A stretch of DNA of 64,000 bases, taken from positions 310,001 through 374,000 of the forward strand of contig CAMFLR010000007.1 of the NCBI GenBank assembly GCA_945957605.1, read 5' to 3'. Of this stretch, positions 25,654 through 55,866 are shown piece by piece (position 1 is the stretch's first letter; each line of letters begins with the position of its first letter). Under the pieces are notes generated by a model. It searched no databases. It saw only the letters and a program-made list of their open reading frames with translations, and was not told the DNA's origin. This DNA comes from an uncultured Isosphaeraceae bacterium. GTDB taxonomy: Bacteria > Planctomycetota > Planctomycetia > Isosphaerales > Isosphaeraceae. The position numbers and the translations under genes are program-made.

Positions 25654-28600
25654 CTAGCGATTCGGATTCTCCGTGCCGCGCGTTGCTGGGGCCGGCGCAG
25701 CAGGTGGTTTCGTGAATGAGAAGAAGTCGAAATTCTCGATCGTCGAGGGGCGGCCGACGACGGTATGCTGCTGATTATGTGTAAGATCCGCGACTCGCCG
25801 CCCTAGCGGAAACACGAGTTCATCAATCGAAAGCAGTCCATCTGCCGGCGGAAGATCCTTGGAAGGATCGGCAAAGATCTCGAGGATTGCTTCGGTAAAG
25901 ATCCCATGTCGGAGCTGAGGGTCTTCAATACTCGATTCGCGGGGCTTGCACGCGCCAAACATGATGGCTCCAACCTCATCTGACACAAGCTCTCGCAAAC
26001 TCTCCGCTGAATGTTTCTTTCCGCCTTCGATTCCGCCTGCATGACAAGTATCAAGGAAAACCAAAGTGTGACGGCTTTTCAGATTTTCCGCCAGAGAAAT
26101 CAGCTCTCGATCCGAAATCGCGGTGTTCGATAGACGATCGGCGTCAAGCTCGTGAGACGCGATGAAGTATCCCTTCGACGGCTCTCCCATACCGTGCGCA
26201 GCCACAAAGAGAACCGCGACATCTTGTGGTGAAACGTTAGCGCCTAACCAGTCGAAACCACTGCGGATACCGGCGAGACTGGCTTCTTCGTTTACGATGA
26301 CCTTGGTTTTGACATCGCTGTAAAGCTTGCCGGATTGCGTCGTCCAGGCGACCGCGAAAGATGCTGCGTCAAGATGGGCAAAGTCGAGGTTGAACTTGGC
26401 GTTTTGGTACTTGGAAATGCCGACGGCCAAAACGTAAACCTTGGGCTTGTCGTCGAGGTCGGCATCTGCGTCCTCGCGAATCACGATGACTTGCCTGGGT
26501 TCGCTACTCGACTTCGAAGCCAAGTCGTTGGCGACGATCGAAATCGCATTACGACGCGCGTTCAGAGGGACGTCGATCTCGATGTGGCGCTGAAGATCGG
26601 TGTCGCCCTGGCGAGGATTGACGGTTTTTCCGGTGACTGAACGGCCATTAACGAGAACCTTGATATCACCAATGGGGAAGCCGTTCATGGACGTCACATC
26701 GGCGATGATCTTCACGGTTTCGTTATCCGTTCGAATCTGACCGAGTGGTTGCGTGATGACAACGCGTGGTGGTTCGATCTTCTTGAAATCGTCGGGATTA
26801 CGCAGGTCGAGGGGAGGAGGCGCATCCGGACGATCGTGATTGGCTGAGATCACGGCCTTTTTCGCGTCGCCCATCTCAATGATCTTGTCTATTACGTCCG
26901 GTCGGAAGAACTGTTTCCGAAATTGATGTGCACTGTAAAAAAGCGCCGACTTTGCCCGTCCCCGGTTTACATGCCAACCGATGAGACGGTCGCCCCCTGG
27001 TGATGCGTCGTAGTAACCGCTCGGCGTCCACAGAACCCACTCGTCTCCCGCGACGAACAAGTTCAACATGGGGATGACGAAGTCTCCGCCGCGACTCAGC
27101 TCGAGCGTGACATCAAAAGGCATTCCTTCGCGTGTCAGATTCACCTTGGCACGTTGACCAGGACGGAAATCACGTTTGCCAGCCAGCAGGCCATCGTATA
27201 TCGATCCGATGCTCTTTCCATCCAATCCTACGAAAATATCACCCAGGCGAATTCCTGCACGCTCAGAGTTGCCGCCGGGTTTCAGATAGTTGATACGGCC
27301 ATTGCCATAGCTGTCGAAGTCTGGCCAGCCAAGGTCGTCGACCGTGTTGAGATTCCAGAGTTTTAGCGTTCGATCGGATGATCCCGAAACAAGCGTTTTG
27401 CCATCGGGAGATTCGCCGAAAGCATAAATCGCACCGGTATGTCCGACGAATCGCCGTCCTCGCAGCGTGTCGGTTGGATCGAGCCCAAAGAGCGCGTTGT
27501 CGTTACAACCGATCATCAACAGGTTTTGAATTCCGGTTCCTTTTCCAGTGAGGTAGCCAACGCGCTGCGGAATGACTCCAGGTGACAGCGCGTAGGACCC
27601 TTCGGGCTGATTATCGCGATTGGAAACAAACGTATAAGCTTTATCATCATTCAGTGTGATCTGGACTTGCCGACTCTGCTCGTGGAGGGATGGTGTGGCG
27701 TGGAGTGTGGGAATCGTTTTGGAAAACGTGCGTTTGTGTAGGTCGAAGACGGTATCGGGCTCGCCGAATTCGTTGAACTTCCAACGATCGGGTCCAAAGG
27801 GCTTCGTGCCATATGCGATGCGTGCCCCTGTTGTATCAAAGGCGGCACTGAATACCGGGCTGCCTTTACCCTCGAGGCGAATCCTACGCTTGCCGGTCGC
27901 GGCTTCCCAGAGATCAATATTGCCCAGATCATCGGCACTCGCGACCAGCGACGCATCCGGAGACAGAGCTACTGCGGATGGGAGGTCGTCGTGACGGTGA
28001 TAGGCGCGTAATTGCCGGCCCGAAAGAGTCCACAAGGTGACGGTGTAGACGCTGTTGCCATCAACGCGGCCAATGCTGCTAAAAATCGCCATATCTTCGC
28101 GCGTGGGATCTTTAGAGCGGACGAAGCGATTGATGATTCTTCGACCGCCGCTGGGAGACTGATCTTCAATGCGACCGAGTAACGCGCCCAGTCCGGAAGC
28201 GGCGGTGTATGCGGTATTCAACTCGGCCGCTGGCGCCAGGCGATCGCGCTGCTCACCATTCAGAAATGCAAGTTCCGAGGCATGGGGAGCAGAAAAGGCA
28301 TGAAATCCTGTTGCATCGTAAATGACAAATAAAGGAATCGCCGTGGGAAAGCCCAGGTATGCGAATTGCGGCGTCCACTGCAGTTGGCCAATCTTCGTCC
28401 CTGTCGGCCAGTTCCAAAAAATGAGCGTTCCATCGACGCCTTGAGTAACCAGAAAGCGCCCATCGGGTGAAAACGCAAGATTGGCAACGCCACCGCTACC
28501 ATGTCCGGGCAGGAGCATCTGTACTTCGGATGGGTCATCCGTGCGATAGACACGCACCGCGCCGGCATCCGTGAAATCTTGCACGCCTACAACGAGTGAT

Positions 28601-28953
28601 TTCCCATCGGGCGAGAATCTGACAACCATGCACTGTCCATTGCCGGCGTCGTCATCATAACCTCGTAGAGTTGCTCGAAGGTTCCCGGTCGCAACATCCC
28701 AGAGCCTCACCACCTTATCGCTGCCTGCGCCGGCGACGATGTCACCTGCTGGGCTGAAATCCACGCTATTAACGCGAGTCGTGAAACCTTGGGTATCGAT
28801 CACAAGGTTTGGCGCGGTGCCGGGTTTTTCATTCGCCAGCGATTGACCGCGCGAGAGTTGAGGAAACATAAGGTTTACTAGCAAAACCAGACTCAGGACG
28901 ATCGCGGGATTCAAACGTTGCGATCGCCTAAAGAACGGGGCAATAAATCGCAT
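25654..28953 (-). CDS. Exported WD40-PDZ-caspase (peptidase C14) protein
   Basis: This 1099-residue protein has a signal peptide or anchor at residues 15-36 (VLSLVLLVNLMF), so it should face the periplasm or outside. WD40 repeats occupy about 45-560, with clear units such as VNSVDFSPAGD...VVRLWD, LAFSPDGRFLVTQGVDGTLIFW and VSGSSDRTLKLWNL. A PDZ-like segment follows (GNSERAGIRLGDIFVGLDGK, about 570-600). The C-terminal third is a caspase-like domain with His920 in VAAHGMG and Cys970 in FLDTCHAGG, the intact catalytic dyad of metacaspase/peptidase C14 proteins. WD40-caspase fusions are frequent in multicellular-like bacteria and planctomycetes; their substrates are unknown. It is followed by the repeat-protein gene. 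Confidence 0.92.
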   Translation of the reverse strand: MRFIAPFFRRSQRLNPAIVLSLVLLVNLMFPQLSRGQSLANEKPGTAPNLVIDTQGFTTRVNSVDFSPAGDIVAGAGSDKVVRLWDVATGNLRATLRGYDDDAGNGQCMVVRFSPDGKSLVVGVQDFTDAGAVRVYRTDDPSEVQMLLPGHGSGGVANLAFSPDGRFLVTQGVDGTLIFWNWPTGTKIGQLQWTPQFAYLGFPTAIPLFVIYDATGFHAFSAPHASELAFLNGEQRDRLAPAAELNTAYTAASGLGALLGRIEDQSPSGGRRIINRFVRSKDPTREDMAIFSSIGRVDGNSVYTVTLWTLSGRQLRAYHRHDDLPSAVALSPDASLVASADDLGNIDLWEAATGKRRIRLEGKGSPVFSAAFDTTGARIAYGTKPFGPDRWKFNEFGEPDTVFDLHKRTFSKTIPTLHATPSLHEQSRQVQITLNDDKAYTFVSNRDNQPEGSYALSPGVIPQRVGYLTGKGTGIQNLLMIGCNDNALFGLDPTDTLRGRRFVGHTGAIYAFGESPDGKTLVSGSSDRTLKLWNLNTVDDLGWPDFDSYGNGRINYLKPGGNSERAGIRLGDIFVGLDGKSIGSIYDGLLAGKRDFRPGQRAKVNLTREGMPFDVTLELSRGGDFVIPMLNLFVAGDEWVLWTPSGYYDASPGGDRLIGWHVNRGRAKSALFYSAHQFRKQFFRPDVIDKIIEMGDAKKAVISANHDRPDAPPPLDLRNPDDFKKIEPPRVVITQPLGQIRTDNETVKIIADVTSMNGFPIGDIKVLVNGRSVTGKTVNPRQGDTDLQRHIEIDVPLNARRNAISIVANDLASKSSSEPRQVIVIREDADADLDDKPKVYVLAVGISKYQNAKFNLDFAHLDAASFAVAWTTQSGKLYSDVKTKVIVNEEASLAGIRSGFDWLGANVSPQDVAVLFVAAHGMGEPSKGYFIASHELDADRLSNTAISDRELISLAENLKSRHTLVFLDTCHAGGIEGGKKHSAESLRELVSDEVGAIMFGACKPRESSIEDPQLRHGIFTEAILEIFADPSKDLPPADGLLSIDELVFPLGRRVADLTHNQQHTVVGRPSTIENFDFFSFTKPPAAPAPATRGTENPNR

Positions 28954-29466: not shown

Positions 29467-30765
29467 TTACCCAGGAAAGCGTCGCATAACGAGCGTCGTG
29501 TTTTGACCACCGAAGCCAAAGCTGTTCGACATCGCGACATCAATGGTGCGGCTTCTTGCCGTGTGTGGCACATAGTCGAGATCGCAGTCGTCGTCTGGAT
29601 GGTCGAGATTGACCGTAGGCGGCACAACGCCGTCGCGCATTGCGAGAAGGCAGGCGATCGTCTCCACTACACCTCCGGCGGCAATCAGATGCCCCGTCAT
29701 GCTTTTTGTGCTCGAGATCGGTATGCCAAACGCTCGGTCGCCGAGCGCTCGTTTGATCGCCAGCGTCTCGACCGAATCGTTAACCTTGGTGCTCGTGCCA
29801 TGAGCATTCACATAGTCGACGTCTTCGGCGTTAATGCCGGCGTCCGCGAGTGCTAGTCGCATCGACGAAATCGCGCCCCGGCCTTCGTCGTGACAGTCGG
29901 TGAGACGAAATGCGTCAGCCGTTGAAGCCTGGCCAGCGATCTCGCCGTAAATGTTTGCCTTTCGCTTTCGCGCGTGTTCGTACGACTCGAGGACAATCAT
30001 GCCGCCACCTTCGCCGATGACGAATCCGTCGCGGTCGCGGTCGAATGGCCGGCTGGCTCGATGCGGCTCGTCGTTCCGTGTTGACATCGCCGTGAGGAGG
30101 ATAAAACCCGTGAGACCGAGCGGATGAATCATGCTGTGCACACCTCCGGCAAGTATCACGTCGGCGTCTCCGTTGCGAATCAACTCTGTGGCCTCGCCGA
30201 TTGCCTGGGCGCTGGCTGAACAGGCCGTTTGACATGAGAGATTCGGCCCCTTGGCGCCGAAGGCAGTGGCGACGTGCGCGGATGGGGTTCCGGGTTCTTG
30301 CTCGGATTCAACGAGCGGATCGAGCAGGGCGGTCCCCAATTCCGTGAACCTTTGAGTTGCGACCTTGGTTCCGTCCCACGAGCGGTGAACGAGGTGGGCA
30401 AACCGATGGAAATCGGTCTGCCCTTCGCCTGCTCCCAGGTAGACTCCGAATCTGTTCCGATCGATCTCGCCGTCTTCAAATAGCCCAGAATCTTTGATTG
30501 CCTGGGCTGCTACGGCGAGTGCGATCTTCGTGTTTCGGCCATGATTTTCCCAGCGAGCGGCGTCTTTGCCGAGATGATCCCAGAGGTTGAACCCCTTCAA
30601 CTCCGCGGCAATTCGCGTCGCGAACGATCTCGCGTCAAACAGTGTGACCGGGCCGACACCGACCCGTCCTTCGCGAAGCGACTCCCAGGTCGACTCGACA
30701 TCGAGTCCCACCGGCGTTGCGACACCCATGCCCGTAACAACCACTCGCCTATCATTTGATCGCAT
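29467..30765 (-). CDS. FabF-like beta-ketoacyl synthase (KAS II family)
   Basis: This 432-residue stand-alone ketosynthase has the condensing triad: Cys182 in QTACSASAQAIG, His in NAHGTSTKVND, and His in STKSMTGHLIAAGG. The opening RRVVVTGMGVATPVG and closing SNSFGFGGQNTTLVM are standard for FabF. A ribosome site GGGAGAAG precedes the ATG. It is the last gene of a minus-strand unit with a MarR regulator and a QueG-like/SCP2 protein, 77 bases after the latter. No acyl carrier protein or reductase accompanies it, so it may be a dedicated enzyme of a small lipid pathway rather than the housekeeping FabF. Confidence 0.92.
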   Translation of the reverse strand: MRSNDRRVVVTGMGVATPVGLDVESTWESLREGRVGVGPVTLFDARSFATRIAAELKGFNLWDHLGKDAARWENHGRNTKIALAVAAQAIKDSGLFEDGEIDRNRFGVYLGAGEGQTDFHRFAHLVHRSWDGTKVATQRFTELGTALLDPLVESEQEPGTPSAHVATAFGAKGPNLSCQTACSASAQAIGEATELIRNGDADVILAGGVHSMIHPLGLTGFILLTAMSTRNDEPHRASRPFDRDRDGFVIGEGGGMIVLESYEHARKRKANIYGEIAGQASTADAFRLTDCHDEGRGAISSMRLALADAGINAEDVDYVNAHGTSTKVNDSVETLAIKRALGDRAFGIPISSTKSMTGHLIAAGGVVETIACLLAMRDGVVPPTVNLDHPDDDCDLDYVPHTARSRTIDVAMSNSFGFGGQNTTLVMRRFPG

Positions 30766-30842: not shown

Positions 30843-32174
30843 TCAGCTCGGAAAGCATTTGCCGAATGCGATGAGCAACCGAGGCGATCCCTTGAGCCGG
30901 ATCTTTCTGCGGATCAACGCCCAGATGAGATTGCGTTCCTTCGCCAGAAAACCGAGCCACGTCTGGCTATCGGCAACGATCTGCAGATTCGCAGTGTCGA
31001 CATGCCCTGGTTCGACTCGGATAGTTTTGTCCCGGATGATGACGGTTGCCTCGGTGGTTTCCTCTCCGGTGAATGCGAAGTGATATGTTGCTTCGATTCC
31101 TTCGGAAGCATGCCGCTGAAAGGCGTGGGGCAGGGCACCCAGAAAAGTGTGGACCGACCTGAGCCGTCGACCCCCACCAATGCGCCTGACTCTTTTGTGA
31201 GGGAATCGCTTTCCGACATACAACTCGGCGTCAGAGCCCGGGATCACGTAAATTGGCTCGACTTTTTCTTGCAACGGGTTCACAACCTCGTTGAGAAAAC
31301 CCTTTCGGTCGGCCAGGAAAGGGCCTATGACGTCGTCGCCCGCAGGGCAGGCCGCCATGCAGTAAGCTGCCTTGTAATTCGCCTCGAAGCTGAGGCTTTG
31401 CCACATCGAGACGGTTTCCGCATCGTCGACACGACTACGGTAGTCTCGTGCGTTCTTGCTATCGGCGACCTGTTCCACCCAGTCGGTGAATCCGCCCATG
31501 AATTCACGGTAGTTGTGAGTGAGGCAGGCGGTGAAATCGAAATGGCCATCGAGCGCGATGGCTCCTACGGGACACGCCGCCACGCAGAGCTTGCATTCCA
31601 GGCACGGATTGAAGTCGATCGGTCGCGATTGATCGCTGATCTCGGCGTCGATCAGGATCGTTGCCAGAAGGATGAAGTTGCCGAACTTGGGATGAATAAC
31701 ATTGCGATGGATACCGATCTGTCCCAGGCCGGCCGCGACGGCGATGGGCTTGTGCGACACAACCCAGATCTTGCCCGGGAAACGGTCAACCTCCATGGGA
31801 AAGCCCATCGAAGGATTGACCGCGCGCATTCCTTCAGCCTCTAGCACCGAGACGATCTTGCTTGCGACCTCGTTGGTATGGTCGCCGGCGTGGTGGAATT
31901 CCAGGTTGGCAACAGATCGCGCTGGGCTGCGAATCGGCTCGCGATTCATCCGGCAAACGATGCTGATCAGACTCTTGGTCCAGGGATAGAGCCCAATTAT
32001 TTCGGCTCGTTGATCGTCGACCTCATGCCGGTCGATCGCGACGAAGCCAACGTCATCCGCCCCTGCGTCCAAGCAGATTTGTCGTAAACGTTCGACGTCG
32101 ATTTCCTGCGGGCGTAGGTGAGATCCAGTCTTCCGGAAACGGATCACGCTGGGATGGTCATCGAGCTTGGTCAT
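30843..32174 (-). CDS. QueG-like 4Fe-4S protein fused to an SCP2 sterol-carrier domain
   Basis: This 443-residue protein resembles epoxyqueuosine reductase and reductive dehalogenases in its ferredoxin part: CLECKLCVAACPVG (Cys191, 194, 197, 201) and a second cluster around YCMAACPAGDD (Cys272, Cys276). The upstream part has KPIAVAAGLGQIGIHRNVIHP, as in QueG-type proteins. Residues about 340-443 form an SCP2-like lipid-binding domain (TVIIRDKTIRVEPG, followed by a hydrophobic helix and a final KLKIKG-like RKIRLKGSP). ATG 32174 is chosen because AAAGGAG lies upstream; the open frame continues further, through the palindrome, without coding character. The fusion suggests redox chemistry on a hydrophobic substrate. 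It is unlikely to be the queuosine enzyme itself. Confidence 0.88.
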   Translation of the reverse strand: MTKLDDHPSVIRFRKTGSHLRPQEIDVERLRQICLDAGADDVGFVAIDRHEVDDQRAEIIGLYPWTKSLISIVCRMNREPIRSPARSVANLEFHHAGDHTNEVASKIVSVLEAEGMRAVNPSMGFPMEVDRFPGKIWVVSHKPIAVAAGLGQIGIHRNVIHPKFGNFILLATILIDAEISDQSRPIDFNPCLECKLCVAACPVGAIALDGHFDFTACLTHNYREFMGGFTDWVEQVADSKNARDYRSRVDDAETVSMWQSLSFEANYKAAYCMAACPAGDDVIGPFLADRKGFLNEVVNPLQEKVEPIYVIPGSDAELYVGKRFPHKRVRRIGGGRRLRSVHTFLGALPHAFQRHASEGIEATYHFAFTGEETTEATVIIRDKTIRVEPGHVDTANLQIVADSQTWLGFLAKERNLIWALIRRKIRLKGSPRLLIAFGKCFPS

Positions 32175-32256: not shown

Positions 32257-32316
32257 GCGGCTTTTCTTAGGGCCAATTCGTTGTATATACAACGAATTGG
32301 CCCTAAGAAAAGCCGC
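32257..32316. repeat. 60-bp perfect palindrome with a MarR-type operator at its centre
   Basis: The 30 bases 32257-32286 are the exact reverse complement of 32287-32316, with no loop. The centre reads CGTTGTATATACAACG and matches the sequence in the marR promoter at 32799-32812 at 13 of 14 positions. The palindrome ends directly at the marR stop codon and lies between marR and the QueG-like gene. It can act as an operator for the downstream genes. As RNA, the same sequence would form a 30-bp hairpin with only a minimal loop. Confidence 0.9.
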
Positions 32317-32778
32317 TCAAGATCCAGCGGCGTCTTCCTTCCAGAGCCGATCTGCAACCTGTCCAAGCGCGGCAATCGCCTCGGTTCCTAACATCGCCTC
32401 GACTCGCCCCTGGGCGTGCCGCCAGGCGGGGACAACGGCTTCCAGAAGGGCCTGTCCTTCAGCAGAGATCCGCAACGGTCGGGCTCGCTTGTCGCTTGAT
32501 TCATCAACTTCTAGCCAGCCGTTTCGCCTCATCAACTCGACGTCCCGGCTCAAGGTTGACTTGTCCATCCTGAGAAAGCGGCAGAGATCTCCTGGCCTGG
32601 CCGGCCCCATTCGAGACACGCCAACGAGGATGTTGAGTTGGCCAACCCTCAGCCCGTGAGGCCGTAGAGCCTCATCGTAGACCGCTGTGATGGCCCGGTT
32701 GAGTATCCGCATCCGTACTCCCAGGCACTCACGCGCGATCATTTCCGCGGCCGACGTGTTGTCCTTCTTTCTCGCCAT
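32317..32778 (-). CDS. MarR-family transcriptional regulator
   Basis: This 153-residue protein has the winged-helix fold of MarR. The recognition-helix region is PGDLCRFLRMDKSTLSRDVELMRRNGWL (about residues 62-89), followed by the wing EVDESSDKRARPLRISAEG. Flanking N- and C-terminal helices supply dimerisation. It is the first gene of the unit with the QueG-like and ketosynthase genes. A GTTGTATATGCAAC site overlaps its own promoter and a near-identical site sits in the palindrome at its 3' end, so repression of itself and of the downstream genes, released by a small ligand, is likely. Confidence 0.92.
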   Translation of the reverse strand: MARKKDNTSAAEMIARECLGVRMRILNRAITAVYDEALRPHGLRVGQLNILVGVSRMGPARPGDLCRFLRMDKSTLSRDVELMRRNGWLEVDESSDKRARPLRISAEGQALLEAVVPAWRHAQGRVEAMLGTEAIAALGQVADRLWKEDAAGS

Positions 32779-32798: not shown

Positions 32799-32827
32799 GT
32801 TGTATATGCAACAACGAAGAAAGTCAA
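32799..32827 (-). promoter_or_regulatory. marR promoter with overlapping MarR operator
   Basis: On the minus strand, TTGACT (32827-32822) is a good -35 box. About 16-17 bases later comes ATACAA, a weak -10 lying inside the inverted repeat GTTGCATATACAAC (32812-32799). The start codon follows at 32778. The same 14-base core recurs at the centre of the 60-bp palindrome with one change. Overlap of operator and -10 is what an autorepressor would need. Confidence 0.65.
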
Positions 32828-55820: not shown

Positions 55821-55830
55821 TTTTAAAAAA

Positions 55831-55866
55831 GACACCTTCGGGGCCATCCCGAAGGTGTCTTTTTTT
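55831..55866 (+). terminator. Intrinsic terminator after tRNA-Leu
   Basis: GACACCTTCGGG (55831-55842) pairs perfectly with CCCGAAGGTGTC (55848-55859) around a five-base loop. A run of T follows, and a matching A-run precedes, so the hairpin can also work in reverse. It starts ten bases after the tRNA 3' end. Confidence 0.92.

Follow-up and report, generated by a model that had tools for sequence, protein, structure and literature searches.

A conserved putative MarR operator behind marR genes of Planctomycetia and its apparent growth into a perfect 60-bp palindrome in one genome

MosR is a redox regulator that controls an oxidoreductase, and its disulphide is formed by Cys10 and Cys12 of helix 1 (PMC5823404). 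The MarR-family gene SCO3205 of Streptomyces coelicolor possesses two pseudopalindromic operators, both of them located upstream of the gene (PMC3737563). With respect to long inverted repeats, template switching is a documented source of long perfect RNA stems (PMC8794818) and of quasipalindrome-associated mutations in E. coli (PMC7202029). The locus described here, which belongs to an uncultured Isosphaeraceae bacterium, can be compared with each of these systems. It lies in a window of 64,000 nucleotides (the whole stretch of DNA that was analysed), to which coordinates refer unless another sequence is named.

At positions 32257-32316 of the window there is a perfect, loop-free palindrome of 60 bp, to which no strand is assigned. 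As the preliminary description had claimed, its two arms (32257-32286 and 32287-32316, 30 nt each) are fully complementary (100%) and directly adjacent (0-nt spacer). The location that it had given, at the marR stop and ahead of a QueG-like gene, is also correct: the palindrome adjoins the stop codon (TCA at 32317-32319 on the plus strand, TGA on the minus strand) and is separated by 82 bases from the ATG of the QueG-like gene. When the entire 8.8-Mb genome was searched with this region, no other copy was obtained, which rules out a dispersed palindromic repeat of the REP-like type. In the 390,769-base contig, loop-free palindromes with arms of 5, 6, 7, 8 and 9 nt number 342, 76, 22, 9 and 2, respectively, and only one has 30-nt arms, the next longest being 18 bp. 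Since counts in this one contig drop about fourfold with each extra pair up to 18 bp, the 60-bp palindrome is not a product of chance. Elsewhere in the window, positions 55825-55865 hold a stem of 18 bp with a loop of 5 bases and A and T runs on its flanks, resembling an ordinary bidirectional terminator.

It had also been cautioned that the palindrome might be an assembly artefact. A fold-back chimera generated by assembly or sequencing is conceivable in a draft genome of 33 contigs, and most sequencing approaches have difficulty with long palindromes (PMC4057610). However, an artefact is unlikely because the palindrome is placed well inside a 391-kb contig and the order of marR and the QueG-like gene on its two flanks, both of unique sequence, is that of the relatives. 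Moreover, a fold-back would run on as the reverse complement instead of resuming the expected gene after 30 bp. Very little probability is therefore assigned to this explanation.

The centre of the palindrome (32280-32293, no strand) is occupied by GTTGTATATACAAC, the core of a putative MarR operator, called O2, that is conserved behind marR in relatives. A second putative MarR operator, O1 (GTTGTATATGCAAC; 32799-32812, no strand), is found in the marR promoter, where it covers the spacer and the -10 region downstream of the -35 hexamer TTGACT (32822-32827, minus strand); a -35 of the TTGAC type precedes O1 in most relatives. A recount confirmed that O1 and the O2 core are identical at 13/14 positions. 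In the 8.8-Mb genome GTTGYANNTRCAAC is matched only at O1 and O2, 519 bp apart around marR. However, chance alone would be expected to yield about two matches in so large a genome, and two per strand are found in the backwards control; therefore, the weight lies on the co-location of O1 and O2 and not on their count. The earlier proposal of a MarR operator at the centre of the palindrome is well supported by the sequences compared, since the site is kept behind marR in relatives and is paired with a promoter site, and O2 is probably bound by MarR.

The conservation of both sites was assessed by comparing 39 copies of marR, taken from genomes of Planctomycetia, with MarR identities down to about 40%. 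An O2-like site was defined as a match of at least 10/12 to TTGTATATACAA located no more than 160 bp behind the marR stop. Such a site is present in 32/39 copies, while 0.12% of random windows of the contig contain one, and O1 is present in 37/39; the copies are relatives, so that these counts are not independent events. Thus, the regulator has a conserved palindromic site both in its own promoter and at the putative target. Among the copies in which the QueG-like gene comes next, 26/27 carry the O2-like site, the exception being L006 with 9/12. In genome G033 the marR copy that was found lies on another contig than the QueG-like gene L078 (G033:C238, upstream of 39701), and this gene is preceded by an O1-like site behind TTGACG and by an O2-like site some 23 bases ahead of the gene start, supporting that both sites belong to the control of the target. 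Judged by these comparisons, many planctomycetes seem to possess the short O2 site as a genuine regulatory feature.

The QueG-like gene (30843-32174, minus strand) is the probable target. It codes for a 443-aa Fe-S protein that is QueG-like or reductive-dehalogenase-like, and whose C-terminus shows a weak SCP2-like match just below the Pfam cut-off. The next gene (29467-30765, minus strand) codes for a FabF-like beta-ketoacyl synthase of 432 aa. The genes marR, QueG-like and FabF-like, all on the minus strand, probably constitute one operon. The QueG-like gene directly follows marR in 27/39 copies, and a FabF-like gene is downstream in two more. Beyond the FabF-like gene, positions 25654-28953 encode a 1099-aa protein; inspection by eye suggests WD40-like repeats and, towards the C-terminus, a caspase-like region. 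Two genomes that belong to a single genus carry a different inverted repeat upstream of marR, TGACAACTATATTGTCA, with arms of 16-17 bp and a loop of 3-5 bases (L013, 2065-2101; L015, 2061-2097).

The marR gene (32317-32778, minus strand) encodes a MosR-like protein of 153 aa with an N-terminal Cys18 that is invariant among relatives. The protein matches the MarR winged-helix domain PF12802 above the cut-off (E 2.8e-08), and its best solved relative is PDB 4fx0/4fx4 (E 1.4e-14), which we take to be MosR of Mycobacterium tuberculosis. The likeness extends to the N-terminal Cys, which is aligned to a MosR N-terminal Cys in the 26/26 marR proteins covering this position; a second Cys is present in 22/27. 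However, while MosR carries two helix-1 cysteines one residue apart, the Cys10/Cys12 pair, the MarR of the window has a single N-terminal Cys (ECL), and its putative target is the QueG-like Fe-S protein. With one of the two MosR cysteines present, oxidation sensing by this MarR is, on sequence grounds, no more than plausible.

The two operators differ in their promoter context. A scan for -35 hexamers (at least 5/6 to TTGACA, 14-19 bp upstream of the site) detected one at 30/37 O1 sites but at 0/32 O2 sites of the same marR copies. Therefore, O1 is an ordinary promoter operator. Conserved in 32/39 copies and devoid of such a hexamer, O2 looks like an operator without its own sigma70 promoter, and it most likely sits in transcribed DNA. 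Taking transcription through O2 as presumed, this would be the situation of a roadblock, an operator placed within a transcribed region, and O2 would most simply serve as a second brake, set between marR and the target gene. MarR on O1, over the -10 region of the marR promoter, would block initiation, and MarR bound at O2 would most likely halt leaked transcripts before they reach the QueG-like gene. A literature search found no relevant paper on a MarR roadblock as precedent.

The main rival to the roadblock is that O2 could overlap a promoter of another type, missed by the -35 scan, so that MarR would repress two promoters, the second being an internal one for the QueG-like and FabF-like genes. 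The O2 core includes TATATA, a possible -10, and in most relatives it is near the start codon of the QueG-like gene; besides, the QueG-like gene of G033, apart from marR, has its own pair of sites. Against these points, the -35 hexamer so frequent at O1 is missing from every O2 site, and a consensus scan did not detect a promoter at O2, although the same scan misses the O1 promoter too. We consider an internal promoter rather unlikely.

In contrast to the short site, the length of the palindrome is not conserved. In other copies the arms around O2 reach at most 9 bp when perfect and at most 12 with mismatches, 30-nt arms being found in the window only. Transcribed into RNA, the palindrome is predicted to give a stem of 28 bp closed by a loop of 4 nt, and the fold of a 171-nt region reaches -73.6 kcal/mol (z -7.1). 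Together with the perfection of the arms, which suggests youth or maintenance, this fold could indicate that the entire 60-bp palindrome is a functional element, either a DNA cruciform competing with MarR or an RNA hairpin attenuating or processing the transcript. However, the long arms occur in no relative, and in 18 other copies the RNA around O2 mostly folds about as well as expected at random (z 0.8 to -3.6), the long hairpin being absent from them. The stem lacks a U-tract, since it is followed by CCTCGTTGG, and the matches of a terminator scan inside the palindrome use only short internal pairings; an intrinsic terminator or attenuator was thus rejected. A function of the palindrome as a whole is quite improbable in our estimation.

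The cruciform switch and the RNA attenuator that had been proposed from the length find no counterpart in the nearest relatives, with their short operator only, or in the mostly weak folds, and a conserved function of either kind is not supported; relatives of this sort are what the preliminary description had itself named as evidence against its proposal. The proposed binding of several MarR dimers is not borne out either, as no second operator-like site was found within the arms. With regard to known RNA families, only sub-threshold microRNA-precursor matches were obtained, as with any long perfect hairpin. A weak, terminator-like alternative fold can be drawn at 32299-32331, where GCCGC of the marR end can pair with GCGGC at the start of the marR-side arm before TTTTCTT; this fold was not seen in the L004 or L006 sequences. 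The extra arms are probably neutral.

The origin of the long arms was approached by comparing the flanks of the operator in the three nearest relatives whose sequences read past marR (L004, L006 and L007; 70-81% MarR identity). In the window, as in L004 and L007, 23 nt separate the marR stop from the operator; L006 has 22 nt there. The marR-side arm (32294-32316, minus strand; GCGGCTTTTCTTAGGGCCAATTC in operon sense) agrees with these flanks at 14/23 positions in L004, 14/22 in L006 and 10/23 in L007 (letter-shuffle p 0.0014, 0.0004 and 0.041, respectively), whereas the QueG-side arm (32257-32279, minus strand) remains at chance level (8/23, 9/23 and 6/23; p 0.16, 0.14 and 0.56). The flanks of the three relatives are not themselves palindromic. 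One arm thus shows homology to relatives, with modest statistics from three of them and uncorrected p values, and the other repeats it exactly in inverted orientation. The resemblance in sequence and in distance to the stop suggests that the marR-side arm is probably ancestral and the QueG-side arm the newer, inverted copy.

The palindrome is best explained, we infer, by template switching at the operator. During replication, a switch nucleated at the palindromic operator would have put an inverted copy of the 23-nt marR-side flank on the other side, so that an ordinary operator of about 14-20 bp became, in one step and in this genome only, a perfect palindrome of 60 bp. The length therefore looks like a one-off accident. 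A GCCGC microhomology is a hint of the return point of the switch, with CAACGAAGCCGC at the corresponding place in L006; this concerns one relative and is not claimed here. In the relative that comes next to L004 in closeness, L005 (G007:C244:1-450), marR is at a contig end and is cut just before the expected O2, leaving the arms unreadable. The marR locus is absent from the one other genome of the same genus that was examined.

These elements can be joined in a single account, which we regard as reasonably probable. A MarR protein, maybe sensing oxidation, would autoregulate a small operon composed of marR and the genes for the QueG-like Fe-S protein and the FabF-like synthase by means of two operators, O1 acting on the promoter and O2 as a roadblock, and O2 would have been enlarged once by template switching. 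More tentatively, and as a possibility rather than a probability, this could be a circuit of the whole class Planctomycetia, in which a Cys-containing MarR acts at O1 to repress its own promoter and, at a promoterless O2 lying between marR and the target, stops elongation, with palindromic operators seeding growth into long palindromes by template switching. If true, such a circuit would allow production of the regulator with its target still switched off. A conserved promoterless MarR operator behind marR, in a poorly studied bacterial class, would offer a simple means by which, inside one operon, repressor and target become uncoupled, and the short O2 site is a more lasting point than the length of the palindrome. 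The latter is probably a mutational curiosity, albeit a clear one: the operator seems to have served as the seed for an inverted duplication of itself.

The palindrome resembles the template-switch (quasipalindrome-correction) mutations described in PMC8794818 and PMC7202029 in having one arm of ancestral flank and an exact inverted copy, with a perfect stem gained in one step. It differs from them in that the event would have been nucleated at a protein-binding operator and in that the ancestral state is deduced from fairly distant relatives only. With SCO3205, the locus shares a MarR-family gene and two operators of the symmetric TT...AA type. However, while SCO3205 has both sites upstream of the gene, the second site of the planctomycete locus, without a visible promoter, is located behind marR and before the target.
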